Source of the DNA: Liolophura sinensis
Lineage: Eukaryota > Mollusca > Polyplacophora > Chitonida > Chitonidae
Assembly: GCF_032854445.1 (NCBI RefSeq)
Contig: NC_088305.1
Coordinates: forward strand, 22,050,955-22,114,954
DNA length: 64,000 nt
Reading direction: 5' to 3'
The position numbers and the translations under genes were made by a program. A model generated the notes under the pieces. It had not been told where the DNA came from. It did not search any database and saw only the letters and a program-made list of their open reading frames with translations. Below, piece after piece: positions 2,400 to 33,359 of the stretch; the stretch's first letter is position 1, and each line of letters begins with the position of its first letter.

Positions 2400-4005
2400 C
2401 CCCCGTGGGGTCTCCGGGGTGAAAAGAATATGACCTCAGCCTTCTAGGCAAGCTTATCGTGAAAGGCGACTTACCTAGAGCTCACCCGTGTGGGCCCAGT
2501 AAATATAATAGGTTCACATCTTCTTGCTTGTGGGAGAGCCAACGGGGAAGCGACTTGTTTGCCGTGGGTTGCGACCAGTAATCTCCGAGGACGGGATCCT
2601 GGTGACTGAAGGCGTGCTGGTCTTACGAGATCCTCGTCTCCAACACGCCACTTAGGCCCTTGCTTGGAGAGAGACGGGAGGTCGGTATGGGCCCGGTCCG
2701 ATCAATCGGCTGGTCGCGTCAAGCCCTGCTCTTGATCCCGTTTGTCATTCTTTCACTTACTGTGATGTCAGTTCGGTTTTTCTTCAGATGCTTTTGTTCG
2801 GGGTAAAACACTGACATCTGTCATTGAAGGTTATTTATGTATAGATGATTCCTTATGTGCTATCCTGCTAAAAATACGCATAACATCGAGCGGCAACTGC
2901 AGGTTTGTCTCAATAAGATCGAGAAATGGGCAGTTGCCAATGGTTAAAGATTGTCTGCGTATAAAATGGTATGTATGCGTTTTTTTGTAATAAACTGAAA
3001 TTTCGGTTTCACTCCGAGGTAAAATTTTATGGTGAACCAGTGAAAATTGTTGAAGAAAATAAATGTCTATAAAAAAATAATAAATTATCTTTTATATCTC
3101 GTATAAAAATGCTTAAAGCTAAATATACAGAGGTTCTCGATATAAGTAAGGACGTGTCTAGAACCGATTGGGGTTCTGCCGATCTATTTCATTAACTTAT
3201 ATCGTTTTCTGATTAGGTCTAAGTTGGACTATAGGTCCATAATTTACGGTTCCGCTACGAAATCGTATATTAAAATGTTGCAGCGGATCCATCACCAAAG
3301 TTTGAGACTCAGTCTTGGTGCTTTTAGAACCTCCCCAGTAGAGAGTTTATACGTGGAGGCAAATGAGCCTTCTTTATATCACCGACGTATAAAACTGAGC
3401 CTTCAATATGCTACAAAACCTAAAGCTCATCCAACAAACCCTGCCTACGACCGTGTTTCCAATTCATCATATGTAGATAAATTTACTAAATGTCCCAATA
3501 AGATCCCCTCGTTCGGTCTTCGTATACAGGACCATATTGTGGGAGCTAACATCAAGCTGGAGGACATACCTCTGGTGTTTTCCTTAGTCTCCTCCATGGC
3601 TTCTTTCACAACCTAATTTGATTCTTGATCTACGTAAATATAATAAATCCAATACAAAACGTATAATTTAGCAAAATTTTGCTGAGATTAAGGCTAACTA
3701 TGCGGATTACAAATTTATATATATTCATGGGGATAGAGTTGCGGCCGCGGCTGCTTTGGAAGAGCGGGTCTCTCCTTATCGTCTGCCATCCTCTTCCCCA
3801 ATTTACGGCTATACCTCTGGCCTTATCATATATTTCTTCTGGGCATGCCCGGATGGCAGTGATTTGTAGTGACTGGCTCACTTCCCTTTTGGTAATACAC
3901 AATAATAAATTTAAAAATCCACTCATTCTTTGAGTGGATTTTAACCTTACATAGAAAACTAATTAGAAGGGGTAAATATATTCTCTCCTGTTGGATACCG
4001 AGCCA
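2400..4005 (+). mobile_element. Family A copy 2: internally deleted, 5' UTR joined to RT/RNase H
   Basis: The copy begins with the canonical CCCCCGTGGGG 5' end at 2400 and carries about 420 bp of 5' UTR. Near 2825 it jumps straight to the RT motif C region of ORF2 (GYLCIDD, related to YVDD). ORF1, the endonuclease and most of the RT are therefore missing. The remainder (130-codon frame 3224-3616, then 3679-3933) matches the RT-RNase H linker and RNase H with stops and frameshifts. The 5' UTR here has diverged but preserves stem pairing (2489-2496 with 2511-2518). The copy ends where an inverted fragment begins. Confidence 0.85.
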
Positions 4006-4615
4006 TATTATCAGTAGGGCATATATTAAAGCTTCGCTGGGCCTTTCCGTGGTTCTTCATGGCTTTGCGACAATCCTTATCATACCAGGGTTTACTTTTT
4101 GGAGTTGGATCTTAGGGATAGTTCTATCGACAGCTCGTAAAACAAGTTCATTAAACTTTAATATAGGATCATCTGCTGCATTGAGATTCTCTGAAGTGAT
4201 GTTAGCATCACAGAACATCTCAAATGCAATCCAATCTCTGCTTTATCGAAATTCCGCCAAGCTATACGTTCTAAAGAATTAGAGGTGACATACTCTAGGA
4301 TTATAGGAAAATGGTCAGTACCACAAAGAACATGCATTTTCAAGAAAAATCAGGGAGAAGTGATTGACGATTGATTATGGGAACGATAGCAGAATAGCAG
4401 TCTTCCACTATTTTGTCCTTATTGTTTATGTTATTACTGCCCCATAAGGGTTTATGGGAATTAAAATCTCCCATTATTGTAAAGGCTTTAGGTAATTGTT
4501 CTTTTAGTTATGCAACTGGGAAGCTGACAAAGAAGTGGTTGGAGGAATATATACGAACACAATATGATTATTTCAGACAATGAAGCACGAATGGCCACAG
4601 CCTGGATGTCTGTAT
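4006..4615 (-). mobile_element. Family A copy 3: inverted endonuclease-region fragment
   Basis: The plus strand here reads as the reverse complement of the ORF2 N-terminal region. It matches 16750-17430 of the intact copy, including the GDFNSHNPLWG-encoding segment near 4435-4475. It abuts copy 2 head-on at about 4005 and contains internal deletions and frameshifts. The 61- to 77-codon frames on both strands are remnants only. The fragment stops at about 4615, where a DDE transposase relic begins. Confidence 0.8.
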
Positions 4616-4619
4616 CCAT

Positions 4620-6115
4620 TGAAGAAGATAGAAGGGTCACTTTTCAAAATGATTTTCTCAGTCATTCTCATGATTTTTTTTCTCAAAAAAAAAGTGGGGA
4701 TATTTACTGTAACATCATAGGGTATAAATATATCCTGAACATCAAAGCCCCTGTCTGACATAACCGAGTCCCCAGAATCACAAAGTTTTGGTAGATCTGT
4801 CCTTTCTATTATTTGGCGAGCAGTAGTAGATCCACCATAAGCTGTTTAAACGTATGTACTCATTCCACCAGGAGAAATACCTACTAATACCCTTACTGTG
4901 TTTTTATTTTTGTATGTACTGAATGTACAAGGCTGAGATGTAGGAAATTTTGGTTTCATCACTGGGCATTCTGTGCCATCTACAATGAGTCTGGTACTGG
5001 TGAATTGACTTTTGAATCCAGATGGAGAATAGAATTAAACAAGATCTCGAGAAGGCCACAATGGAATTTTTCTCCACTGAAGAGACATAAATCTAACCCA
5101 AGTACAAAAATGTTGTAAACATCAGCTTCACTGATATCAAACACATGGCTTATTTCAAAGTTGAAGTAATGTTTTCTCAACTTTATCAAAAAAGAAAAAA
5201 AACTATTAATAACAGAGCCAACAACTGCCCTAAACATATAATTTAAATGATAGGAAGCTGTACCTAAACTGCCAAATACAAACTTATACTTCTCATAATT
5301 TTCCAAGCCAGTAAAGCAGTGAATACCACAGGAATCAGCATAAAACTTTGAAATTGAAAATGAAGGCTGGTAAGATGGGTTGGTGAAACCAATTTTTGTG
5401 TCTTCTTGATCTGTATGAGTACGAACTGAATTATACTGAGGAATGAGAGCGGTGTTACAGGTTATGTTACCAGAGACTACAGTGGCTTCTTTTGCTACAT
5501 CTGGCACACTGTGAGACCGAAGTTATGTATCCTCCAAAATTTCATGACATTCCTTGGGATCCAAAAACGATGTCTGTCTTCTTTGCGGTCTTCTCTTTGG
5601 TACCCTTGTCCAAGCAAACACAGAGGGAACAGAAGTGGACTTTAGGCGCTTTATTTTGAGATCGCTACCTTTATAAAAAAAATCAACCATAACATAATCA
5701 AAAATAGAACAATAATTTTGTCAGAAGTTTAACAATAACGTTTCAACATGAAGGCATTAGCTTTTTTAAAGACATTCTCTATTAAAGAAAAATATTGTTT
5801 CAAATAGATAACAGCAACTCATGAACAAATCCATACTAGTTTACATGATCAGTGGGCTACGTAATGAACAATTAACCGCAAGGTATCTTTCTGTCGCTCA
5901 CACACTAGACGGACACAGAGGAAGTTCATTTTGTCTGGATTAAAAGCATTTCCATTTCGCAAAAAAGGTGACCAATCACAACTTGTTTTTGTCACGTAGT
6001 TGGATGCCAGAAAATGATCCGAACATACAACATCCATCGACTCGGTCCAATGAATATCCAATGTTTTCATATTGTAGGACGATCTAATCCAAGAAACGCG
6101 TGCCCACCGCGATTT
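4620..6115 (-). pseudogene. Degenerate ISL2EU-type THAP/DDE transposase
   Basis: On the minus strand, 4980-5507 encodes a helix-turn-helix-like segment (FTGLENYEKYKFVF). Translation of 4760-4985 in the adjacent frame gives a first catalytic region (LIVDGTECPV), and 4573-4761 gives the second (SDRGFDVQDIF..VNIP). These correspond to LDCTE and ADKGF..LNIPPF of the better preserved transposase at 27368-28461. Upstream on the same strand, 5985-6115 reads W-x-R..HWTES..VVCSDHF, which looks like the C-terminal half of a THAP finger. The first cysteines are missing, and there is an in-frame TAA near 4850 plus frameshifts. No YqaJ remnant was seen between the parts, so this is probably another subfamily. 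The right end is replaced by family A sequence. Confidence 0.7.
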
Positions 6116-6442
6116 AAGCACAACACTGAGTTTACGGCATTGCCTACGGGCCTACGCGATTTCACAGTCGATTTCGAGACTCGTTATTCTTTGTCTTACT
6201 GAGATGTCAACTTGGCTCTTTTTCAGATGCTCTTCCTTTGGGGGTCAATGCAGAAGGCGGTGGTTAATGGGTCAGTCGAGTAGACTGAATTTAACCTTTT
6301 GGTATAACTCAATCTGTTCGAGTATACCTTGAGTGGATTCCCTGTTTTTATTCTCTGCTGGTCATCCGCAGAGGTAGATTCGCCCTTGTTGGCACTCCGT
6401 GGCGGGTGGGGGACACGTAAGGCGAAATTGCTTTAATAAATA

Positions 6443-7689
6443 ATGGCCTCATTTTAAGTTTCAACTTAGAATATATCTAGGTGGCCGGCTTTTATTGTTC
6501 TCTCGACTAAGAGTGAACAAATACCGGCCCTTAAAGGGCTCTACACGGCACAGCTGGAGCATTAAAAACCGTTAAAAAGTTAAAATCCGGAGACATTCTC
6601 ATTGAATGTTTCCGGAGGCAACAATCAAAAACTTTATTGTCAATAACTAAAATATCTGATATACCTGTTTTCGCATCCCCGCACAATTCCCTGAACAGCT
6701 GTCAGGGGATAATTCGTGACCGGGATGGTAATATTATTGACTTATCTGAAGAGGAAATATGCGCAGAACTGAAATCACAGGGTGTTGCCAAAGTTAAACG
6801 CTTCACTACGAAGAAATCTGGCAACATCATTAAACTTAATACATATCTTAAGGCCTTCAACACAACCTCGCTTCCGTCGTATATCTAGATTGGCCCGTAT
6901 AGGGTTAGCGTAGATTTATACATTCCTAACCCTACACGCTGCTTTACTTGCCAAAAATTTGGTCACGTCAAGGGCCAATGTAAAATAAACTGGTTTGTTT
7001 TAGATGCAGCAGTGAGGGTCATGATTGGTTTCGACTGCAGCAGCACAGTTAAGTGTTGTAATTGCAGTGGAGATCACATGGCCTCCTCCAAGGACTGTCC
7101 GTTTTTTATTAAAGAAAAGCAAATAATAAATCTAAAAACTAAAAATAATATCTCTTATCAGGAGGCCCGCAAATTGGCCTCCCTCTTTAACATTTCAATG
7201 CAAGCTTCGTTTGCCAATGTGGTCAAGCGAACTACAACATCTGTTGGAACTCAAACTTTATTAACATGGCCCATTGGAATCGACTAACCTAGCTCGACAT
7301 CTTTACAACCTGCTGCTCAACCTGCGCATATTTCCTGCTCAACACAGACCACTGCAGAACAGCAAATAAAACCAGTCAATAATAAACAACAAACTGATAC
7401 ACCTGAACTTAACCAATTCAAAAGCAAAACTGCCAAAACCAAATCCGGAAATAAAAATATAACAATGCTAATAGTAAAACTAGCGGTCCCACAGAGCGTC
7501 CCTCTAAGGCCACTAGGGACCCTGTCCAAACTTGTGATAGGTTTGGATCGTTGAAGGACCCTTTAGCATCAGATGCGTATGTGATGGATACATCACCTGC
7601 ACCAGAGAGATTTTCCAGCCGATCTCCAAGGAAAAGTCGTCCTCGGTCCAAACATAAAGAGAAATCTCCTATACGTCTCCCTCCATAAT
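6443..7689 (+). pseudogene. ORF1 (gag-like) remnant of family A copy 4
   Basis: Frames 6637-6888 and 7012-7287 give the conserved pre-knuckle block (IIRDRDGNIIDLSEEEI, KVKRFTTKKSGN) and the last zinc knuckle (CCNCSGDHMASSKDCPFF). The N-terminus is missing, a TAG interrupts after SLPSYI at 6886, and the middle knuckles are frameshifted near 6985. The Pro/Ser/Lys tail with TERPSKATRDPVQT-like sequence follows to the TAATG junction at 7687-7691. Confidence 0.85.
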
Positions 7690-10600
7690 GTCCATAATGG
7701 TAAATATAAAGATAACACAACTCTTAAAAATTATTCCTTATACAGTACTTATTCAAATGAAGAAGAACGAGCTGCAGGCGTCTCTTTTATCTTCATCAAT
7801 AACAATATTATTCACAGCCCTGTTCCTCTGGATATAGAGCTTCAGGCTGTGGCCGTTCATGTTTCACTGTCTGAAACAATCACATTATGTTCGGTGTATA
7901 TACCTCCGAACACTTTTTTGTCAATTTCTCAGTTACACACTTTAATAAAACAACTACCTAAGCCGTTTATTATAATGGGAGATTTTAATTCCCATAACCC
8001 CCTATGGGGAAGTAATAACGTAAATAATAAAGGCAAGATATTAGAAGACTTCTTATCTAAGGAGGAACTGTGTTATTTCAATGATGGTTCTAATACCTAT
8101 TTACATTCGGGTAATGGCACTTATTCTGCTATCGATCTCACTATCACTTCTCTCGGATTTTTCCTGGAAGTTGCCTGATGATCTTTGTGGTAGTGACCAT
8201 TTTCCTATTATACTAGAGCATATCACTTCAAATTTTTTGGGACGTTTAGCTAGGTGGAAATTTGAGATGTTCTGTGAGGCTGATATCTCTCCAGAGGATC
8301 TCAACGCAGCAGATGATCCTATATTGAAATTTAATCAGCTTGTATTACGAACTGCCGATAGAACTATACCTAAAACCTCGACAAATTCCAAATCCAAAAG
8401 CAAACCCTGGTATAACAATGACTGTCGTAAAGCCATACAGGACCGTAAAATGGCTGATCGCAGATTTAATCATTGTCCCACTGACAATAATTTAAACCAG
8501 GTTCGTATTTTTCAAGCTAAGGCTCGTCGATTACTCAAATCTAAGAGACGATCTTGTTGGCGGAACTTTGTTTCGGGCATTACGTCATGGTTGAACCTGA
8601 ACATGGTTCAGAAGCTTAAGGGAAAAAATAATAAAGCAAAAGTCCAGCATTTGAAAGATGGAGATAATATATTAACCTCTCCATCCGATATAACTAATAA
8701 ACTAGCCGAGACAATTTCCAAGAAATCTTCGTCTGAGAATTATACTTAAGGATTCCAACATATTAAAAACCAGAAGGAGAAAGTTAAATTGCTCTACTGA
8801 TCCAATTAATTACCGTCCCATAGCTCTTACCAGCTGCGTCTGTAAGACTATGGAACGGATGATTAATAATAGACTTGTTTGGTTTCTTGAAACCAACAAG
8901 CTACTCTCTAATATTCAATATGGTTTTCGGCAGGGTAGATCTACCATGGACCACCTTGTTCAATTTGAAATTTTTATTCGCGATGATTTCATCGATAATG
9001 AACATGTGGTGTCCATATTTTTTTACTTCAAAAGGCCTATGACATCACGTGGAAATATGGTATTTTAAAAGACCTTGCGGATATGGGATTAAAAGGTCGA
9101 TTACCATTATTTACATCAGAATCATTATCCGATCGTCAGTTTAAGGTACGGGTTGGGTCCACTCTTTCTCACTCTTATGGGCAGGAAATGAGTTTACCCC
9201 AGGGCAGCATTCTATTAACAACTTTGTTTAGCATGAAAATAAATAGCCTAGCAAAAGCTTTAACATGTGGAACAGAGCTTCCTTTATATGTTCATGACTT
9301 CCTTATATGCTACCGAGCTAAGAATATCAATAATATCGAGCGTCAGTTGTAGCTTTGTCGAGAAATGGGCAACTGAAAACCGTTTTAGATTTTCAACGTC
9401 TAAAACTGTCGGTATGCATTGTTGTGATAAACAAAAACTTCACCTTGAACCTGAGCTTATTTTCTTGTGGTGAGCAGATTAAAATTGTTGGAGAAACAAC
9501 AGTTTTAGGTATAATATTTGATAGTAAGCTATCTTTTATACCTCATATAAAAATGCTTAAAGCTAAATGTACAAAGGCTTTCGATATAATTAAGGTCGTG
9601 TCTAGCACCGATTGGGGTGCTGACCGATCAGTTTTATATAACTCATATCGTTCTCTGGTGAGGTCTAAATTGGACTATGGATCCATCATTTACGGTTCCG
9701 CTAGGAAGTCGTATATTAAAATCTTGGATCCAGTTTATCACCAGGGTTTGAGGCTCAGCCTTAGTGCTCTAGAACCTCACCAGTAGATAGTTAATACGTG
9801 GAGGCAAATGAGCCTTCTTTATATAACCGACGTATAAAACTGAGCCTTCAGTATGCTACAAAGCGTAAAACTCATCCAACTAACCCAGCCTACGACTGTG
9901 TTTTCAATCCATCTTATGTAGACAAATTTAATAAAAGTCCCAATAAGATCCCTTCGTCTCGTCTTCGTACACGGGACCATATTGTGGGAGCTAACATCAA
10001 GTTGGAGGATATAGCTCCGGTGTCTTTTCGGAGTCTCCTCAATGGCTTCTTTCACAACCCAAAACTGATATTCGATCTACGTAAATATAATAAATCGAAT
10101 ATAAATCCTCTTATAATTCAGCAAGGTTTTGCTGAAATTAAGGGTAATTATATGGATTATAAATTTATATACACTGACGGGTGAAAGGATGGGCACAGGG
10201 TTGCGGCTGCAGCTGTCATGGAGCAGCGAGTCTCTTCTTTTCGTCCTCCATCCTCTTCTTCAATATTCTCTGCCGAGGCCAGAGCAATACTTCTGGCCTT
10301 ATCATATGTTTCTTCTGGGCGTGCTCGAAGGGCAATGATATGCAGTGACTCGCTCTCTTGCCTTTTAGCAATACATAATAATAACTTTTAAAATCTCTTG
10401 ATCCTTCAAATTTTAGCCATACATAAAAAACTAATTCGAAGAGTTAAATATATTATATTCTGCTGGAAACCAAGTCATACTGGTATCCATGGAAACACAG
10501 TCGCAGACAGGGCGGTGAAAGCTGCCCTATATAAACCCACATATAAGATTAAAATCTGTTATACTGACACGAAGGCCAATTTTCTTAAATATATTCGTGG

Positions 10601-11413: not shown

Positions 11414-12934
11414 ACAGGATCCGTAAACAAAATCCTCAACAACTTGAGCATGCTGTGCCCACGTGGTATGTCGGCTCAAGGGACAGGGGATGAGACGAGG
11501 GCAAGAAGATCCGACAAGCCCCTTGTTGCACCCACCGTGATAAAGGATACTAACAATAGCCCTACAGAACTTTAAGATATTACTATTACTTTTCATGAAT
11601 ATTTTTGTGTGGATTGCTGGATATTGGGTGCGGAAGTCAAATGTACAGTCACAGCACTTTTGGTGAATCTCGTGCCAGACCCGACAATAAAACCTAATTT
11701 TTGATAGGCATGTCTGACGTTTTTTGTCTCAACTGCAGCATTAAAGCATTGAAAATAAAAATGGAACTCCAATGAAAGAGCATCCTCTACTTAAATTTGT
11801 GGAGCTTTTAATTCTTCAGTTTTAAAGTCTCGAAACTACATTTGGTTTGACGTGGTTATTGGACCATTTTTTGTTTCTGTAGTCTATTAAGCCTGTTGGA
11901 CCATTTTTTCTTTCTGTAGTCTATCAAACCTGTTGGACCATTTTTTCCTTCTGTAGTCTATCAAGCTTGTATCACCCCTCTGATTCATTGCAGACCACTG
12001 GCCCTTGAACCATAAGGTGTAGTTTTTGAGTCTGGCTGTTGTTGTATGCTGCAGTTTGACATCATTACTTTTGACAGGCATATCTGCCAATTAAGGTATG
12101 GCAATATCTGGTTTCCGGGAATCTTAAATTTGACAGCCGTGAGTTACGTGAAATACCACTGCGTACGTCGTAAAACACTGTCGTTCAACAATCAAGAAGA
12201 AAGGTACGCTGGCTAAGGTGATCGAGAGTAAATTTGTATGGTAGGATGGGTGTTGGTGGAACTGTGTATGCCCATGTGCAGCCCACCTGGGACCCACTCA
12301 AAACAAACACACAACCAGGTGTCAGCCCGCCCAAACCCCATGTTTGACCCAGTGGGCAGCCCACTGTGGACTCAATTGGAACATGTGACCAAAATGACAC
12401 AGGCCCTAGTTTGGTAGCCCAATTAGGCAACACTGATCAGCCCACTTAAGACCCATGTTGGGCCCGATTATGTTTGCTAGCTGGGTATCCGCTATAAGTT
12501 GCGCAGAGCTATTGCGATTTACAAAGTCCTACATTCTTTCGCCGTACTTAGTGGGCGACTGCATTATAGTGTGCTGTGTTTTCGCTACATACAAGGGCAC
12601 ACAAAGTATCCCGTTATCGTCGATTATATAAGCCCTCTTTATGCTTTCTAACCGCGGGATAGTCACAAATAGTAAGGTAGTCTGTGAATCACCAGACGTT
12701 AAGAAATCTTTAGGCATCTTGCAGATAAACGATGTTATAACCTAAAAATCATCACTCCGCTGACAACACAGATGGCGCTGCTAATTATCCCAATGCCATT
12801 GTCAGTAAGACCCAACACTGCGTAGTAATGCAACTGGCTTGTGATCAGATAAATACAAAACTGTAGTGCATTAATCAGCGTTTAAAAACGAAACAGCTGA
12901 GTACATAGGTGAGAGTGACGGGAGACTGAAGTTA
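11414..12934. repeat. Repeat unit B, copy 1 (left part of segmental duplication)
   Basis: This non-coding block recurs almost base for base at 24745-25673 plus 31379-31944. It includes a 37-bp tandem motif (starts 11861, 11898, 11935; about two copies in the paralog at 25192-25267) and a degenerate GGGC/GCCC-rich minisatellite at 12250-12480. The intact sequence GGACTCAATTGGAAC at 12368-12382 is the empty site for the ISL2EU-type insertion in copy 2. I see no protein that the block supports; the 82-codon frame 12185-12433 is a translation of the minisatellite. Confidence 0.9.
11861..11971. repeat. 37-bp tandem repeat x3 inside unit B
   Basis: GGACCATTTTTT followed by CTGTAGTCTAT starts at 11861, 11898 and 11935. 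The paralogous block at 25192 has about two copies, so array length differs between the two duplicates. Confidence 0.9.
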
Positions 12935-22705: not shown

Positions 22706-24735
22706 CCCCCGTGGGGTTTCCGGGGTGATAAGAATAGGACCTCGGCCCTCTAGGCAAGCTTGTCGTAAAAGACGACTAACCTAGACCTATCCTGTGTAAG
22801 CCCGGTGAATATAATAGGCTCACATCTTCTCGGTTGTGTGAGCGGCAACCGGGGAGCGACCTGATCTCCGAGGAAGGGATCCTGGTGGCTGAGGGAGTGT
22901 TGGTCTTCCGAGATCCTCGCGCCCAACACGTCACTTTGGCCCTTACTTGGAGTGAGACGTGAGGTCGGATGGGCCCGGTCCGATCAATCGGCTTGGTCAT
23001 GTCTTGCCTCTGCGTTGTCCCAGAATTTCTCCATAACACCATTCCTTAGAGAAAATGTTATTTCTGAAACTTCGTTTACAGGACTACGTTTTGCGGCGGT
23101 GGCTTATGGGTCAATCGAGTAGATTGAATTTAACCTTTTGTATAAATCAATCGGTTCGAGTATACCTCATATGGAGTCCTTGGTGTCTTTCCTGCTGGGT
23201 ATTCCCAGGTTCAGGCATCGCCCTTGTTGGCACTCCGTGGTGGGTGGGGAACATATCGGGTGAATCATATATATATATTGCCATGTCATCTTTAACCTAA
23301 ATTCGAATGTTTCTAATCTAAATAGCAGGTCTTCCTCTCAGCCGCTTTCAAGCGCTGACAAAAAGAGGAAATTAGAGGTTTTATCGGATTCGGTTGATAA
23401 CGAACAGGACAGTTGGCCGGCCTTTATAGTTCTCTCAACAAAGAGTGAACAAAAGCCGGCCTCCAAAATTCATCCATTTGTACTGAAAAGGGATTGCAGG
23501 GTTCAGCAGGTACATTAAAAAACATCAAGAAATTACGATCCGGAGACATTCTCATTGAGGGAATTATACGTGACAGGGATCAGGATATCATTAACTTATC
23601 CGAAGAGGAATTCTACACTGAACTGAAGTCACAGGGTGTTACCAGAGTGAAACGCTTCACTATGAAGAAATCTGGTAACATCATTAAACTAGAGTTAGTG
23701 TAGACTTATACATCCCTAACCCAACACGTTGTTTTACGTGCCAGAAATTTGGTCATGGCAAGGGCCAATGTAAAAACAAACTTGTTTGTTTTCGATGTGG
23801 CAGCGAGGGTCATGATGGTTTCGACTGCAGCAGTACGGTTAAGTGTTGCAATTGCGGTGCAGATCACATGGCCTCCTCTAGGGACTGCTCACTTTTCGTA
23901 AAAGAAAAACAAATTATCACTGTGAAGACTAAAAACAATATATCGTATCAGGAGGCCCGGAAACTAGTCTCACCTCCTAATACTTCACTGCAGACTTCAT
24001 TTGCCAATGTGGTCAAGCGAGTAGCATCTGTTGCTACTCAAACATCAATGACTTGGCCCATTGGAAACCAGAAACCATGTCCTATTTCTGTTGAACCTAC
24101 TGTTCGACCTGCTTTTTAATACGTCCTCAACCCAGACTACCTCAATACAACAGATAAAACCAGCCAATAATACTGACCAACCAGATATCCCTAAACCTAG
24201 TCAACCTAAAAGCAAAAATATGTCCGAAAATAGACCTCAAAATAATAATAAACCTATAAACCCAGTGTCCCAACAGAGCGTCTCTCTAAGGCCACTAGGG
24301 ACCCTGTCCAAACTTGTAATAAGTTTGGATCGTTGGAGGTCGTTGGTCCTTCAACATCAGATGCGAATGTGATGGATACATCACCCGCACCAGGGAGATC
24401 TTCAGCCGGCCTCCAAGGAAGGGTTGTCCTCGATCCAAACACAAAGAAAAATCTCCTATACGTCTCCCTCCGTAATGGCGATATACGACAAAATTATACA
24501 GTGCAATTGTCGAGGCCTTAAGGTTAATTTTATTGAAATAACACAGCTTGTTCAATCATTAAATCCTATAGTCCTTTGTCTTTAGGAAACTTACCTGAAG
24601 ACATCTGACAAAGATAAAATAACTCTTAAAAATTATTCCTTCTACAGTACTTATTCAAATGAAGAAGAGCGAGCTGCAGGCGGCTCTTCTATCTTCATCA
24701 ATAACAATATTATTCACAGCCCTGTTCCTCTGGAT
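22706..24735 (+). mobile_element. Family A copy 6: 5' part only, cut at duplication junction
   Basis: The copy begins with CCCCCCGTGGGG at 22706, with a full 5' UTR, a decayed ORF1 (about 23285-24476) and the first ~80 codons of ORF2, stopping at CCTCTGGATA (~24735). Its sequence is nearly the same as 33360-35195, which continues as a full ORF2. ORF1 lacks two segments: one between the pre-knuckle blocks near 23555, and one at 23695, where SGNIIKLELV terminates. The abrupt end coincides with the start of unit B copy 2, so this truncation is the joint of the segmental duplication and not an insertion end. Confidence 0.9.
23285..24476 (+). pseudogene. ORF1 remnant of family A copy 6
   Basis: Frames 23494-23703, 23868-24119 and 24061-24372 carry GIIRDRDQDIINLSEEE, VKRFTMKKSGN, the third knuckle region (MASSRDCSLF) and the Ser/Lys tail in shifted frames. 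The knuckle-bearing stretch 23715-23870 is readable in another frame. The stop before ORF2 reads CCGTAATGG instead of CCATAATGG but keeps the TAATG overlap. Confidence 0.8.
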
Positions 24736-25673
24736 AAAAAAAATCCTCGGACATAAACATGTACAAGACAACAACTTGAGCATGCTGTGCCCACGTGGTT
24801 TGTCGGCTCAAGGGACAGGGAATGAGAGGAGGGCAAGAAGATCCGACAAGCCCCTTGTTGCACCCACCGTGATAAAGGATACTAACAATAGCCCTACAGA
24901 ACTTTAAGATATTACTATTACTTTTCATGAATATTTTTGTGTGGATTGCTGGATATTGGGTGCGGAAGTCAAATGTACAGTCACAGCATTTTTGGTGAAT
25001 CTCGTGCCAGACCCGACAATAAAACCTAATTTTTGATAGGCATGTCTGACGTTTTTTGTCTCAACTGCAGCATTAAGGCATTGAAAATAAAAATGTAACT
25101 CCAATGAAAGAGCATCCTCTACTTAAATTTGTGGAGCTTTTAATTCTTCAGGTATAAAGTCTCGAAACTACATTTGGTTTGACGTGGTTATTGGTCCATT
25201 TTTTGTTTCTGTAGTCTATCAAGCCTGTTGGACCATTTTTTGTTTCTGTAGTCTATCAAGCCTGTATGACCCCTCTGACTCATTGCAGACCACTGGCCCT
25301 TGAACCATAAGGTGCAGTTTTTGTGTTTGGCTCTTGTTGTATCTGCTGCAGTTTGACATCATTACTTTTGACAGGCATATCTGCCAATTAAGGTATGGCA
25401 ATATCTGGTTTCCGGCAAGCTTAAATTTGACAGCCGTCAGTTACGTGAAATACCACTGCGTACGTCATAAAACACTGTAGTTCAACAATCAAGAAGTAAG
25501 GTACGCTGGCTAAGGTGATCGAGAGTAAATTTGTATGGTAGGATGGGTGTTGGTGGAACTGTGTATGCCCATGTGCAGCCCATCTGGGACCCACTCAAAA
25601 CAAGCACACAACCAGGTGTCAGCCCGTCCAAACCCCATGTTTGACCCAGTGGGCAGCCCACTGTGGACTCAAT
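24736..25673. repeat. Repeat unit B, copy 2, left part
   Basis: Matches 11414-12376 (GAGCATGCTGTGCCCACGTGG, the ~37-bp motif, the GGGC-rich minisatellite) and stops at GGACTCAAT, where the ISL2EU-type transposon begins. Compared with copy 1 there is an extra ~22 bp near 24748-24768 (GGACATAAACATGTACAAGACA). Confidence 0.9.
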
Positions 25674-25686
25674 ACACCGATCCATT
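25674..25686 (+). repeat. Left terminal inverted repeat of ISL2EU-type element
   Basis: ACACCGATCCATT, the exact complement of 31366-31378. Preceded by AT, the duplicated target. Confidence 0.93.
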
Positions 25687-25756
25687 TCCGCCGCGTAGGC
25701 CACGCCTCCCTTGCCGACGCCATAGCAACGCCCAAGGTCGGACATAAAATGTACAC

Positions 25757-28700
25757 ATGGCGGCCGGTTCAAATTTCAACTTGCTGCTTCAGTAAATTTC
25801 TACCGATTATTTTGGCGATGCCAACGTTTTAACCAAGCGTGCAAAAGAGAAGGGGTATAATTTTTTCGTTAATGGTTACGTTCATGCGCTCAAAGTGAAC
25901 AGTTCCAGTAAAAATATTGTCGATATCAGTGCTAAATGCTATCGTTCTATGAGGAAAAGCGAGCAACCTCATCGAACTGACATGACGATTCATACCCAGG
26001 AGAGAAGAATCACGGACAGTCATTGTTCATGTAAAGCTGGGTATGTGTGCTTTTCCTGTTTATGTAGTGAATTGGTGTATAATTATAAATATCTTGTAAT
26101 GTTCATAAATGTAGATTTAAGTTTAACATGTTGCGGCAGGTATTTTAACTGTTGTCGTTGTTGTTTCGACGTTAGCCTTGGATTTAGACTTATAGTTTGT
26201 TGTCCAAAGCGCGTTGGCGCCTTCAATTTTGTTGTATATGTTATAAAATAAAATCTGTACCATAGAAACTAATAGAGACCTAGCTTGTACTTCTAATTCT
26301 GAGGTTAAGACTGTCCAGCGATGGTTCACTTACGTTGTATATTTGCATACTACGAAAAAATATTCGGAGCTGTTGAGCCCATAAGTTAACTCACACTAGT
26401 GTTATGGTACCGATATCTTCTTTATTTTTACAGAATAACTGGGGCATGTTCTCATGCTGTTAGCGTCGTCTACACAGTTGGCCACTATAAACGTTTGGGA
26501 CTGAAAGATATCCCTTCACAGCCGGCTTGTACCAGTTTGCCTAAACAGTGGCACAAACCGCGGGGCCCAAAGATCAATGCCGAGCCCGTAGCTGCAATAG
26601 TTTTTGCTAAACCAAGGCCAACACCTCGCCGAAAAAGGCCAGTGTGTTGTTCTACACCAACACTTAGGTAATTATTAACTGCAGTGCAAAATCCTTCCTC
26701 TCATCAGTGACCAGCCTGTGCAGCTCAGTTTATTGGCCTGTAGAGCATCATTAATTGGCTGAGAGAACCAGGTTAAACCCTTTGTCAATTCAGTAGGAGC
26801 TGCTGTTAGGGTAGCCTGGTTGGCCAGGTGTCCGCATGATTTGACCTTATAAACAGATTTACAAGCGCCGTCAATCGCCTCATATTTTTTTTAAAATGTT
26901 TTCCATCAAGCAACAAATCAGGTCATCAGTGCACTTTTTGTGACAGAAACTGATATATTTTTACCAACAGGATCCCAGAATTGAAGGAAGATGACATAAA
27001 GAAGTTGGAAGTAGACAAGTCCACACCATTATCATATTTACTGCAAGATGAACTGCACACAGAAAAAACAGAGTATGGAATTGTGCAGAAGGGCTCAATG
27101 TTACCTTTACAGGTCTGTATAACAATAACAAGAAATTAATTATTTTTGGGTTAGGATCCTTTAATACACTTCAAGTATATTACAAATCCATCAGTCCACA
27201 CCAGATGAACAATCAATCATAGTCATCCATATATCTCGATCATTTATAATGGGTTTTTTTTTTACACAATTTCCACATCAGTTTCTAAATCTGGTATATA
27301 TGTTACCACTCCATATTTCCCCTGATGATGAAATTGTTTGTCCAAATTGTAATATATGGTACAAAAGTTATAATTTTACCAAAGTATCTTGAAAATTAGT
27401 TAAGATTGCAGCAACAAACCAATTTTCATTAATGCAGTGAAACAAGCTAACTGGAATTTTTCTTCTCAGTAACTTAAAACATTTTATTTTATTAATTGCC
27501 CGTTCAACATGAATCCTATGTGCTGCAATTTTTTTAGTCATATTTACTTCTGATTCACTTAATGGTTTTCCACTTGAAGCAAATGGAGGTATATTCAGAT
27601 TAATATCAAATTCTGACAGAATGCCTTCAATCCTAAACCCCTTATCTGCCATTAGTGCATCTCCAGCAACAATGAAGCCCCGTTCTTTCAAATCAGGTAC
27701 AAAATCATAGAACCCACTTTGTTCACAAATTTCATTGTCTGAAATTGACCCAGAAAACAAATCTGAAACAAACATAACTGATCCTCTAGGATCACAAACA
27801 ACTAATGACTTCAAGGTATTGGATGATTTATAGTCTGAAAAGCACTGACTCTGTACTTGTAAGGAAGATGGTTTTTCACATTTAAGCTCTGTACAATCAA
27901 GGATTGCTAAACAAGTCGGAAAATCAGCTTTGTAATTCTCAGGCATGTTTTCTATAATTACATTTCTATGTGGCCAATAGCTAAGGGAGCCTAACCTGAC
28001 ATACATATATTTTGCAACACCGATGAGAACTGTTGACACTGTTGGCACTTTCACATTAAATCTGAAGGCCAGGTCTTTAACATGTAACCCCGTTCTGAGT
28101 CGACACAGGTACATAAAAACTTGTTGTGATAAGGGGAATTTTTTTACATTAGTTTCCTTTCTTTTCTGTGGATATGAAATTGGATTTGCACAATCACTGG
28201 GAAAGAGGAATGATAGTAACATCAGAAATCTGGCATATGTTAAGCCTGTATAAAACTTAAACAAATTTTTAATATTTGACTCAACAACTTCTTCAATTTC
28301 AAATCCACCTCTCTGTTTAAATTCCTCAGTCTGACACTGTTTATCGCACTTATTAATATTTAGAAGTTCCCTCTTGGCAAAGTCTCTGATCAATTTATTG
28401 TTTTCCTCTTTCAGCTGCCTGATTCTTGCAACCATGGAGAACACATCCAACTCAGAATAGACTGAAATAGTAAATAGTGAACAGGATTGATTAACTGACT
28501 GGGCAGTAATGCAATTAAAAAGCTACTGGAAAATTTCTCACAACAACGAAACTCAGTTTGGAATGAGATGGATATTCCCCGTTTCCAGAGTATGGAGTTA
28601 TCTTTCCTTTAGACCCGGTATCTGCCTTCTGTCGTGTCCCACAGTGACCACATACTAAACATACCATCTTTCAACTGTCTGGCTTTACAATATGAAATAG

Positions 28701-29804
28701 GGAGTATTCACCCACTACAAGGGAAGTAAAGGTGTCACTCTCAGTACAGTGGAGACCTCTGTTTCATTGACTAAGAAAGCCATATAGGTATTCATGGGAT
28801 TTTGTTTTTGTCAGTCCGTGAGATAGAGGTCTCCAGTGGACTGTGAATATTCCCCATTAGAACAGATATGTTACTAAGGGCAAATAACTCCTTATTCTGC
28901 AAATGGGGAATACTGTCTGAAATATTTACTCTCCTTTCAGTGTTTCTTGCACTTTCATTCCTTGTGATATTAAACCTATACATTTCATATTTCACATTAC
29001 AGAGATGTACCAAATCTTGCACCAAAGACGACAACTTGTGGAAGAATTGTATTTCCCCAACCCAACAATGAAATGCAGCCGGCCATTAACAATCAGATGC
29101 GCAGCCTTATCAACGCAATATTTTGCACAACTCAAGAAGAGGCTGAAAAAATTGAGATGTCAACACGGGACCAAGCAGACAGCGCTATGTGGTTTGAGGA
29201 AAGACGAAATCGTCTGACAGCTTCACAGTTTGCAAAAATTTGTAAAAGGAAAAAGGATATCAATGAAAAATTCATTAACAGTTTATTTGGAGAAGTTAAT
29301 ACCTTTACATCTCCAGCAACATCGTATGGCAGGGCCAATGAATCTGTTGCCAAGCAAGTATACTTGGCCAAAAATACAAACATTCACATTCATGACTGCG
29401 GGCTGGTTGTCAATCCACAATTCTCGTTTTGAGCTGCAACACCTGATGGTAAAATTTGTATCAATGGCCAGACGGGAATACTTGAAATAAAATGTCCTTA
29501 CTCAGCCAGAGATTTGACGATTTCAGAAGCTGCAAATACAGTTCCAAATTTCTGTCTAGTGAAACTGGCAACAAGTCCTACCTTAAACCAGAATCATGAC
29601 TACTATTTTCAGGTGCAAGGGCAACTGTTGGTAACTGGAGCTCCTTTTTGCTTATTTCTGGTGTATACAAAGAAAGACATGTTTGAAGAACAAATACTGC
29701 CCAATTTAAATTTCATGACAGATATGTACAAGAAGTTGTTGAGGTTTTACTCTCAGTATGGCCCGAAGAGTATATCATTACATTCTCCTAGTGGAAGTGA
29801 ATAG
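25757..29804 (+). pseudogene. SWIM zinc finger - YqaJ-type nuclease gene of ISL2EU-type transposon
   Basis: Exon 1 is 25757-26040: ATGGCGGCC in good context, then YFGDANVLTKRAKEKGYNFF..GYVHALKV and the SWIM half-motif HCSCKAG. Exon 2 is 26434-26667; ITGACSHAVSVVY completes the SWIM CxCx(n)CxH. Exon 3 starts at 26971 and ends at 27072 or 27112. The last exon, 29003-29804, carries the YqaJ domain (RDQADSAMWFEERRNRLTASQFAKIC, TSYGRANESVAKQVY, TPDG, EIKCPYS, YYFQVQGQLL). Splice sites are GT-AG, and phases agree for exons 1-3. The join into the last exon fits in phase from a GTATGG donor at 27073; the donor at 27113 would need one more small exon. Two nonsense codons are present: TAA at 25793 (codon 13) and TGA at 29430, just before the TPDG motif. 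The protein probably assists transposition as a lambda-exonuclease-like nuclease, by family analogy. This copy is inactive. Confidence 0.85.
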
Positions 29805-31174
29805 GACATACTTACTCTGTTCTTCAGTCTGGCTTGCAGAATCACAACTGTGAGAAGAACCTTCTGGTGGTGATGAGTCTGTAATATCACTGGGAATTAA
29901 GCAAACACAGTCACTATTTACTGTAACACATGTCTTGATTAACTTGTCCAGATTTATAATTTATTACAATCATTATTTCTGTATTCATTTATGTGACCAG
30001 ATTTATAAATTAACTTGCTACTAATGGCAAGTGGTGTTGTGTATCCAGATTAAGTAAACTGTGCCAAAGTTCCTATAAGCCTCAATAAATTTTAGCTGGA
30101 CACTTAACTGTGTGAATATTCAGAGTTAATAACACACTAATGAAATACTCTTGGTTATTGTTAACATAATGATAAATATTGTTCATATCAACCTACTGTG
30201 ATAATGTGTTGTTCTGGGCATATGATACGTGGCGGCGTGATTTTCTAAATTCCCCACTTAAAGCATCATTTGGATCAGGATATTCTTCATTAGGTCCACT
30301 GAGAGATATGAAATGCTGCAAGTAAATAAAGACACATATGAGTTGGTATTCGTGAGATTTCATTAAAAGTGAGCGAGTGCTTGGGTTTAACAACCTAATG
30401 AACAGTATTTCAGCCATATACAGACGGTGTCTCCTTGTTGCAGGATGGATTTCCTCCGCTCTTTTAAGGTGCTACAGTTGTACCTCAGCAAGACAACTTG
30501 CCTAAAAAGACACCCAGCAAGCCCCCTCACCCAGTCACATTATGCTGACACCGGGCCGACCAGTCGCTGCTCTAACCCCACAACAGCTCCCACTGTTAGA
30601 GTTTCTGGTCTGACTAGACCCACGTTTGACCCTGGATCTCCCAGCCCAGAAGCGGACATGCTAATCAATAATGACAGACTTAACATGTTAACGCAATCCC
30701 TCCCCTCTCCTATACCCCATAAAATAAAATAAAAATAAAAAAAATATTGCACTTAGGGACGTGGGGACAGTGGAACACTAACAAAAGAGTCTAAATTTCG
30801 GACACAACTTTGTTACAAGGAATATTCGCAAACGCACATGCACAGGCCTTTTACATGTACAACAACACCACCGCCTTATGAATATCTGACAGATAAGCGG
30901 CGATGGAGCCTCACAGAAAGTTACCAAGCTTCGACAACCATTACATACATCAAAATAGATTCACTTACCTTTGAACAAATATATGTATGCTTAGTTATTT
31001 TTTCCACGTTGAGATGGGAATGTGGACGGCGACACAAAGCTATCCAGCGCAGGCATTTTTGCAGGTCAGACTTTGGCTTCGGGAAACCCGGAAAGGAATA
31101 AATTTAGCTCCTCCTAACTTTTCCGGGTACCTGCTATCAGATTTGCAAGTCCCATATGAACAATGCTTCACCAT
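27368..31174 (-). CDS. THAP-DDE transposase gene of ISL2EU-type transposon, four exons
   Basis: Exons on the minus strand are 31174-30969, 30315-30197, 29889-29816 and 28461-27368. Exon 1 encodes a THAP finger (MVKHCSYGTC..SRYPEK), continued in exon 2 (CSK/HFISLSGPNEEYPDP). Exon 3 joins as LSH/DITDSSPP and exon 4 as EEQ/IYSELDVF. All junctions are GT-AG with matching phases, predicting about 494 residues. Exon 4 contains a coiled segment, a helix-turn-helix region and the DDE_4-type core. Numbering from the TTG at 28450, the core residues are D185 (AILDCTE), D269 (MADKGF) and E316 (HVERAINKIK), all present. Lesion: exon 1 carries 8 extra bases near 31082-31089 (GGGTTTCC, a near duplication of neighbouring bases), which breaks the THAP frame; without them exon 1 is exactly 66 codons. 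The main exon is undamaged. Exon 4 lies within an intron of the YqaJ gene. Confidence 0.87.
29805..30196. other. Transposase intron with exon 3 (29816-29889)
   Basis: This stretch holds the small third transposase exon (acceptor TTAATTCCCAG, donor GTAAGTATG on the minus strand) and intron sequence. The YqaJ stop at 29804 lies 12 bp from the exon 3 end, so any YqaJ 3' UTR would be antisense to transposase exon 3. Confidence 0.7.
30316..30968. other. Transposase first intron
   Basis: About 650 bp between the THAP exon and exon 2 on the minus strand (donor GTAAGTG, acceptor TTTACTTGCAG). It contains a 101-codon plus-strand frame 30427-30732 (Pro/Ser/Thr-rich) without a motif; I do not call it a gene. 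Confidence 0.65.
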
Positions 31175-31365
31175 TTTCACAAGAGGCAAACATTCAGACA
31201 GTATATAGGATGTCTTGAGGCTGAGTTTACTTAGACTTCTGCAACCAGTTTCACGCGTCACTGTAACAGCCATGTTGTCGGAGTTTTGTCCAACCTGTGG
31301 GCGGAGCTAAAGGGTTGAACGCGTTGTGCAATTTGATTGGCTTATCGCCCGTCAATCATATCGCG

Positions 31366-31378
31366 AATGGATCGGTGT
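31366..31378 (-). repeat. Right terminal inverted repeat of ISL2EU-type element
   Basis: AATGGATCGGTGT, the perfect complement of the left end; followed by the AT target duplicate at 31379-31380. Confidence 0.93.
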
Positions 31379-31944
31379 ATTGGAACCTGTGGCCAAAATG
31401 ACACGGGCCCTAGTTTGGTAGCCCAATTAGGCAACACTGATCAGCCCACTTAAGACCCATGTTGGGCCCAATTATGTTTGCTAGCTGGGTATCCGCTATA
31501 AGTTGCACAGACCTATTGCGATTTACAAAGTCCTACATTCTTTCGCCGTACTTAGTAGGCGACTGCATTATAGTGTGCTGTGTTTTCGCTACATACAAGG
31601 GCACACAAAGTATCCCGTTATCGTCGATAATATAAGCCTTCTTTATGCTGTCTAACCGCGGGATAGTCACAAACAATAAGGTAGTCTGTGAATCACCAGA
31701 CGTTAAGAAATCTTTAGGCATCTTGCAGATAAACGATGTTATAACCTAAAAATCATCACTCCGCTGACAACACAGATGGCGCTGCTAATTATCCCAATGC
31801 CATTGTCAGTAAGACCCAACACTGCGTAGTAATGCAACTGGCTTGTGATCAGATAAATACAAAACTGTAGTGCATTAATCAGCGTTTAAAAACGAAACAG
31901 CTGAGTACATAGGTGAGAGTGACGGGAGACTGAAGTTAGCGGCG
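31379..31944. repeat. Repeat unit B, copy 2, right part
   Basis: Resumes exactly where the transposon ends and matches 12377-12934 (TGTGACCAAAATGACAC region, CACAGATGGCGCTGC, CGGGAGACTGAAG). The conserved 62-codon minus frame (31533-31721, twin at 12529-12717, three residue differences, no motif) is most likely chance conservation within a young duplicate. Confidence 0.9.
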
Positions 31945-32520
31945 GGTTAGGTATTAGTTATTCGAATAACTAACACAGCAGCGGGTTAGTTATTCGAATA
32001 AGCAATAACTAAGCCAGCACCGGGTTAGTTATTTGAATAACTAACAATTATTCACCAGTGGGATAGTTATTTAAATAACTAATAACTAACACAATAGCGG
32101 GTTAGTTATTTGATTAACTAATAACTAACTATCAGTGAGTTAGGTAATCGAATAACTTGCTGTATTAGTTATTTGGATAACTACACCGCTGCTCGGTTAG
32201 ATATTGATTATTCCAATAACTAACCCGCTGTCCGTTAGTTATTCAAATAACTGATTTGGAATAACTAAAGAGCAGTAAGTCTGTTATAAATTATACGATT
32301 ACCTAACCCACTGCTAGTTAGTCATTAGTTAATCGAATAACTCACCCACTGCTGTGTTAGTTATTAGTTATTCAAATAACTGATTTAAAATAACTAACCC
32401 TCTGCTGGTTAGTTATTCAAATAACTAACCTGATTCTGGCTTAGTTATGGGCTATGCGAATAAATAACCCGCTGCTGGGTTAGTTATTAGTTATTCGAAT
32501 AACTAATAACTAACCCGCTG
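31945..32520. repeat. Palindromic minisatellite, copy 2
   Basis: Same AGTTATTYRAATAACT units as 12935-13281 and 20534-21224. The segment 32155-32245 is inverted relative to copy 1 and contains GCTGTATTAGTTATTTGG, the complement of the undisturbed AATACA target of the TIR element. Confidence 0.87.
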
Positions 32521-33359
32521 TTAACTTCAGCGTGCTGAGTGACAGTACTGGAGATGTTGTTGCACCAGATGGCATGATAGCGTTGTGTGGAAGATTTTAT
32601 CTAGTAACGGTGAACTAAACTGACGGCCATTAGAAACTTTACCATAGATTTAACGGCCCAAATTTGTATTAACACAAAACAGATGCTAGACATGAAATAT
32701 ATGGAAAACAACAATATGTTTAGTTCATCCCAGTGAATTTGTTAGGGTCTTCAACCAATATGACTTTTGTCCTGAACACACCCAATTCAATGGGCCATTT
32801 TTGGCCTTGATGGGAAATTGAATAAAGGAATTCAGATTTTCAACGAGGCTGTTTGGTGTTTGTTTTTCTGTGTCAAAGCAGAATGAGTGGGATGTTTTCA
32901 AGTATGATAATCACTTATAAACAAGCTAAAGGTATATATTTTAGAAGCATTTTATTCCATCAACATGACTACATGACTAGTCTGTAAAAAAACAAAAAAA
33001 AAAAAACAAAAAAAAGAAAAAGAAACGACGTGATCGCTAATCTAGTTTTCACATGTTGAGATACCATTTGCCAACAAATGCACGCTTATTTAGATATGTA
33101 TTTTGCACAGGTTTTGTACGAATCTGAAAGTAGGGTGTCTCATTGCCATTTCTGGGGCAATTTATGGCAATATTCCCTCTCTCTCCGATGTCAAGGCATC
33201 TCAAAGACACCAGAACACATATGACCACGAGTATACTACCTGCTGATTAAGTTAGCAATGATGTTGTCCAGGAACTTCTGTTTGTCTGATTTTATGTCAT
33301 TCTCTGGGCAAAGGCTGATCTTGTGCTCCTCAGCAAACATGTGACTTTCCCTATCCAAG
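32521..33359. repeat. Duplicate of 21225-22705 with 640-bp deletion
   Basis: Matches copy 1 to CATGACTAGTCT, then jumps to GTAAAAAAACAAA (22340 equivalent), losing the hAT dimerisation exon; both edges share TCT. The upstream hAT exon remnant (FAEEHKISLCPEND) is retained on the minus strand at 33230-33359. Confidence 0.88.

Follow-up and report, generated by a model that had tools for sequence, protein, structure and literature searches.

Two-gene transposons are usually drawn with their genes side by side, and a locus in the chiton Liolophura sinensis raises the question of whether the two can instead be threaded through each other and, if so, whether this is an accident of one copy or the inherited layout of a lineage. 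We analysed a stretch of 64,000 nucleotides, hereafter the window (assembly GCF_032854445.1, contig NC_088305.1, positions 22,050,955 to 22,114,954 of the forward strand), which carries a SWIM-YqaJ nuclease gene on the plus strand (Y) and a THAP-HTH-DDE transposase gene on the minus strand (T); numbers after these letters denote exons. We hold, with a probability of roughly 0.8, that the window contains a decayed copy of a two-gene cut-and-paste transposon of the ISL2EU group in which T and Y are reciprocally nested, a layout inherited within one lineage of that group.

Exon order, domains and ends of the element

Along the plus strand the exons follow one another as Y1, Y2, Y3, T4 (minus), Y4 (plus), T3, T2 and T1 (minus), which places T4 within intron 3 of Y and Y4 within intron 3 of T (Table 1). 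The exon borders and splice phases proposed in the preliminary description are borne out, with GT/AG borders and agreeing phases at every listed junction. Two ends had been offered there for Y3, of which 27072 keeps the frame and is retained and 27112 loses it and is discarded.

The identities that had been claimed for the two genes also hold. T4 matches the Pfam families DDE_Tnp_4 (E 5.9e-42) and HTH_Tnp_4 (E 3.8e-9), and Y4, read through its stop, matches YqaJ (E 8.1e-16); the Y4 frame is open in L001, a close copy on another contig. A profile built from three rows of Y4 relatives finds exonucleases of known structure, with 3syy as the best match (E 8.8e-15), and a search of solved structures with the transposase gave no match. 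In both genes the first intron splits a zinc motif, THAP in T and SWIM in Y. In L001, the T1 peptide alone is without a Pfam match and T1 and T2 joined give THAP at 33.4 bits (cut-off 23.9); Y1 and Y2 are likewise without a match when taken alone and, joined, give SWIM at 15.0 bits, below the cut-off of 19.6. The window's own half of T1 reaches 17.3 bits for THAP, which is also below the cut-off.

The ends of the element are defined by its family and by its target. The family copies share the same ends and have different flanks (the left end of L007 falls in a run of N). An element-free copy of the host repeat within the same window (12263-12496) carries AATT where the filled site reads AAT-element-ATT, and the flanks of the empty and filled sites are 97.3% and 96.6% identical. 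This comparison fixes the element at 25674-31378, with an AT duplication in AATT and an inverted repeat of 13 bp; the exact match between the two ends is 16 bases long, of which the first three are the target AAT.

As described in the main text of Han et al. 2015 (PMC4482050), ISL2EU elements have an AT duplication, an AATT target, a THAP-HTH-DDE transposase and a YqaJ protein. The element in the window shares both protein types (with THAP above its cut-off in L001 once exons 1 and 2 are joined), the AT duplication at A/AT/T seen in the paralogous empty site, and an inverted repeat whose 13 bp lie inside the stated range of 6-259 bp, all of which upholds the assignment to ISL2EU made in the preliminary description. 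It differs in that the inverted repeat usually starts with GG there and starts with AC here, a feature that is not strictly defining, and in that the mean length is about 4.8 kb there and 5.7 kb here. That main text nowhere uses the words intron, splic-, orientation or overlap. Two other assignments were rejected: PIF/Harbinger, given an AT duplication instead of TWA and no match to Myb/SANT among the six pieces scanned with Pfam, and Spy (no duplication, AAATTT target, single gene), given the AT duplication, AATT target and two genes found here.

The window copy itself is broken. Its Y gene is interrupted by a TAA at codon 13 and by a TGA directly before the TPDG motif, T1 is frameshifted by 8 bases that are extra relative to five of the other seven family copies (L001-L007), and T2 has 44 bases fewer than all seven. 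From the second half of T1 onward, the transposase exons nevertheless give 463 stop-free codons. The other copies probably use a different donor for T2, since the exon with its listed borders would hold in-frame stops in them. The eight copies have different flanks, and L001-L007 are 98.1-98.6% identical to the window. Y1 is open in L001-L004, Y2 in L001-L006, Y3 in L002-L007, Y4 in L001 and T1 in five of the other copies; T4 is completely open in the window only. Y4 and T3 are retained only by the window and by L001, which has lost Y3 and all of T4 except its start. The six non-identical copies L002-L007 have one deletion in common (window 28732-30005, 1.27 kb), which takes Y4 and T3 together. 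As these copies occupy different sites, the deleted form was itself copied, presumably with help from complete elements. Selection tests within the family were set aside because the copies are too alike (differences of about 0.3-2.1%), and the pattern between the window and L001 in Y4, where eight residues differ for about ten bases, is as expected for dead copies.

The crossed order in other families of the genome

To place the layout among its relatives, we paired 41 places of the nuclease exon with 66 DDE places (65 of the 73 rows of one search and one from another) wherever they lay within 12 kb; the places come from protein searches only, matches in family copies were left unpaired, and all pairing and repeat counts are lower bounds. 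At least 26 rows are paired, six of them crossed, at five loci (the window, L001, L008, L009 and L010), and 20 plain tail-to-tail, two rows sharing one DDE place. No paired rows lie on the same strand, and 15 of the 41 nuclease places have no DDE place nearby. The absence of the interlock from relatives had been named beforehand as the outcome that would count against it, and the crossed order is present in L009 with its continuation L017, in L010 and in L008. The interlock thus marks one ISL2EU lineage and, in this genome, is not typical of the whole group, the 20 other paired rows being plain.

The most complete comparison is with L009/L017, which holds Y1, Y2, Y3, T4, Y4, T2 and T1 in the order of the window, together with a T3-like acceptor region. 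Protein identity to the window family is 54% in Y1, 54% in Y2, 68% in Y3 and 47% in Y4, and 65% in T1, 53% in T2 (15 codons) and 49% in T4. Six of the twelve splice sites fall at the same place, namely the Y2 acceptor and donor and the Y3, T4 and T2 acceptors in nucleotide alignment and the T1 donor by protein match; two lie close by (the Y4 and T3 acceptors), two are not kept and two are unalignable. Some 6 kb separate the two pieces into which the T4 of L009 is divided. L010 retains Y1, T4, Y4 and T1 and L008 retains Y2, T4 and Y4, both decayed and in crossed order. Terminal repeats were looked for in L009, L010 and L008, and nothing convincing was found. We also note that the gap between the T4 pieces of L009 (about 2560-8670) contains two weak chance matches, whose letters we take to look like integrase and RNase H, perhaps from a retroelement insertion.

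Both genes bear the mark of constraint at the protein level. In codon alignments of the window family with L009/L017, third positions make up 43-59% of the differences in Y1, Y2, Y3, Y4, T1 and T4 (one-sided p <=0.003 each). Nucleotide alignments, in which T4 is represented by its 5' part only, give shares of 43-56% (p <=0.015 each), compared with 32% in a short intron control of uncertain homology. Among more distant loci, p falls below 0.05 in three of three exons of L008, three of four of L010, two of two of L020, one of three of L011 and one of two of L018. The third-position excess between families indicates that both genes were kept as proteins on lineages sharing the crossed order.

The plain families of this genome, L013 and L012 among them, encode the same two proteins on opposite, converging strands; they differ in that their exon order is uncrossed and that in L013 the Y gene, and apparently also the transposase, is one frame. 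The Y gene of L013 runs through 511 codons in a single frame, which matches YqaJ and, weakly, SWIM. When the four Y exons of the window are joined, they give one continuous alignment to that frame (residues 24-443 against 52-491, E 3.5e-42, 27.6% identity), and the Y1/Y2 junction falls inside the SWIM motif in both. The L013 transposase frame of 467 codons covers the last two thirds of THAP, HTH and DDE, the first third of THAP being out of frame in that copy; five other copies of the L013 family have open frames of 527 codons. These uninterrupted counterparts are consistent with splicing across the crossed exons, which we infer for the window family.

The transposase tree (22 rows, L025 and L035 left out) accounts for the crossed and plain labels with one change. 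Leaving aside L026, which has a long branch, the 15 plain and T-only rows are set apart from the crossed side by a branch supported at 90/99. The nuclease tree has 12 rows, with L030 left out and L027 giving no row. A constraint that places the crossed and unclear rows in one clade is rejected in neither tree (p 0.33 and 0.22). That broken relatives in the same genome have the crossed layout suggests that it is an ancient, inherited trait and did not arise by chance in a single copy. We read it as the inherited state of one ISL2EU lineage, probably derived by duplication and loss from a plain tail-to-tail ancestor: if the neighbouring exons Y4 and T4 were duplicated in tandem, and one copy of the block then lost its Y4 and the other its T4, the crossed order would result. 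We infer the direction of this change and its route, as well as past activity of the element, and consider a neutral origin along these lines the most likely. Inverting the Y4-T4 block was rejected as the origin, since it would flip the strands and cannot yield the crossed order.

A further observation concerns L018, which the transposase tree does not place in the plain group and which carries an uninterrupted DDE frame of 390 codons (L018 4166-5335; G000:C10:7745665-7746834). Its next best genome match is at 39%, and no YqaJ partner was found in the 9.5 kb read. The MADKGF of the window corresponds to MAGKDF in L018, where the presumed catalytic Asp is lost and the frame is still open; on that ground L018 may be a domesticated transposase.

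Competing readings and possible regulation

Several results weigh against an inherited crossed layout with splicing across it. In the comparison of T2 with L009 (15 codons, p 0.075), and in that of some exons with more distant loci, the third-position excess falls short of significance. L009 keeps neither the Y1 nor the Y3 donor, its Y4 acceptor is about six columns off, and T4 residues beyond 196 were not found in it. Outside the window's family, the crossed loci are single and decayed. Treating the unclear and T-only rows as further groups raises the number of changes that the crossed label requires on the transposase tree to three, and the nuclease tree, which also needs three, does not resolve a crossed clade. 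The T exons of the window match plain transposases over the T4 part only, leaving T2 and T3 uncovered, so that the T3-T4 junction is argued from phase, the conserved T4 acceptor and gene content. Retrocopies with joined exons were sought as proof of splicing and none was found, the listed matches running exon by exon.

Some of these results bear on a reading in which the genes are separate, with Y1-Y3 encoding a small SWIM protein and Y4 and T4 expressed from their own promoters in opposing introns, with no cross-splicing. An in-frame Met near the exon start in both Y4 and T4 and the lack of a conserved Y3 donor in L009 would fit such an arrangement. We nonetheless regard it as improbable. The plain locus L013 joins SWIM to YqaJ in one frame, and the last two thirds of THAP to HTH and DDE in a second; L009 retains the position of the T4 acceptor; and L009 and the window agree in a few residues (CG-TV) that precede the internal Met of Y4. 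That a local rearrangement or an assembly error of one copy shifted the exons past each other might be suspected from the broken state of the window copy and from the frequency of internal deletions in its family. This is by now largely refuted, and exceedingly improbable: the same order recurs on a different contig, in L001, and again in three divergent families, and one change suffices on the transposase tree.

Under the reciprocal nesting that we favour, each gene would start near its own end of the element, with transcription converging, and each pre-mRNA would splice out the catalytic exon of the other gene. In elements of this family the transposase cuts and inserts at AATT. A putative poly(A) signal lies beyond each stop codon (Table 1). 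If both were used, the pre-mRNAs would overlap in antisense by about 3 kb, and use of the signal at 30084 would leave in the mature Y mRNA 74 bases complementary to T3. A scan of roughly 930 bases of the L009 plus strand following Y4 met a single AATAAA or ATTAAA, about 900 bases beyond that exon, and this counts against conservation of a short 3' untranslated region (UTR) in Y.

Regulation by the layout, or an effect of the antisense overlap, is possible, and the crossed order might be a regulatory device in which convergent transcription, double-stranded RNA between T3 and the Y 3'UTR, or competition in splicing limits or balances both proteins. The persistence of the layout between families that are about 50% identical in protein, and an AATAAA beyond T3 in all eight family copies, are in line with this. 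The eight copies are, however, nearly identical, which makes that conservation weak evidence; the signal in L009 is distant, as noted, and plain rows outnumber crossed ones here by 20 to 6. We therefore consider a regulatory device unlikely. It is similarly doubtful that the nesting was selected. On that view neither gene could be expressed unless the other's catalytic exon were transcribed and then spliced out, which would couple the doses of the two enzymes, and the antisense RNA thus built in would limit transposition.

Features of the window and wider meaning

Table 1. Positions, within the window, of the element, its exons, ends, target site and putative signals
Feature	Position	Strand	Remarks
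ISL2EU-group DNA transposon	25674..31378		5705 bp; from ends common to family copies and paralogous empty site
Target site duplication AT, 5'	25672..25673		A precedes; from empty-site comparison
Target site duplication AT, 3'	31379..31380		T next; from empty-site comparison
5' terminal inverted repeat	25674..25686	+	13 bases, starts AC
3' terminal inverted repeat	31366..31378	-	
Paralogous empty site AATT	12374..12377		in element-free copy of host repeat
Y exon 1	25757..26040	+	start codon, first half of SWIM zinc motif (CxC); TAA at codon 13
Y exon 2	26434..26667	+	second half of SWIM (CxH); acceptor and donor kept in L009
Y exon 3	26971..27072	+	acceptor kept in L009
T exon 4	27368..28461	-	HTH and DDE catalytic domains, in Y intron 3; acceptor at same place in L009
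Y exon 4	29003..29804	+	YqaJ nuclease domain, in T intron 3; TGA at 29430-29432
T exon 3	29816..29889	-	low end 12 bases from last base of Y stop codon; acceptor region recognisable in L009
T exon 2 as present here	30197..30315	-	44 bases short of other seven copies; acceptor kept in L009
T exon 1	30969..31174	-	first part of THAP domain; frameshifted
First AATAAA past Y stop	30084..30089	+	putative poly(A) signal; in 8/8 copies
ATTAAA past T stop	27160	-	putative signal; in 7/8 copies, those keeping that stretch

Other sequences in the window lie around the element. An array of AT-rich palindromic units around TTAGTTATTCGAATAACTAA occupies 31937-32530, about 560 bases past the 3' end of the element. 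A short way upstream of the element, at 23688-24119, is a frame of 143 codons with CCHC zinc knuckles, which presumably resembles retroelement gag proteins. A second decayed fragment of DDE_Tnp_4 type, with two stops and 31% identity to the transposase exon, lies on the minus strand at 4669-5094.

Two genes facing each other are also found in convergent transposons such as MuDR or RAG-like elements, and we know of no reciprocal exon nesting in them. Nested or interleaved antisense gene pairs in animal genomes share the placement of exons inside the introns of an opposite-strand gene; they differ in that host genes are involved there and the two genes of one mobile element here. A literature search that included PMC4482050, PMC9179366, PMC12730594 and PMC10225492 found no description of crossed or reciprocally nested ISL2EU genes in the texts covered; most subscription papers and Repbase lie outside that scope, and absence from print is not implied.

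With each catalytic exon intronic to the other gene, the two genes are inseparable by a simple cut. Strand-by-strand gene models of such elements may miss exons, which is a warning for annotation. If the nesting were selected after all, the crossed lineage would be a self-regulating kind of transposon and not a frozen accident. The crossed layout has outlasted divergence to about 50% protein identity, and it offers a tractable case in which to study how reciprocal gene nesting originates, whether a transposon is kept in check by convergent overlap, and what becomes of internal deletions.

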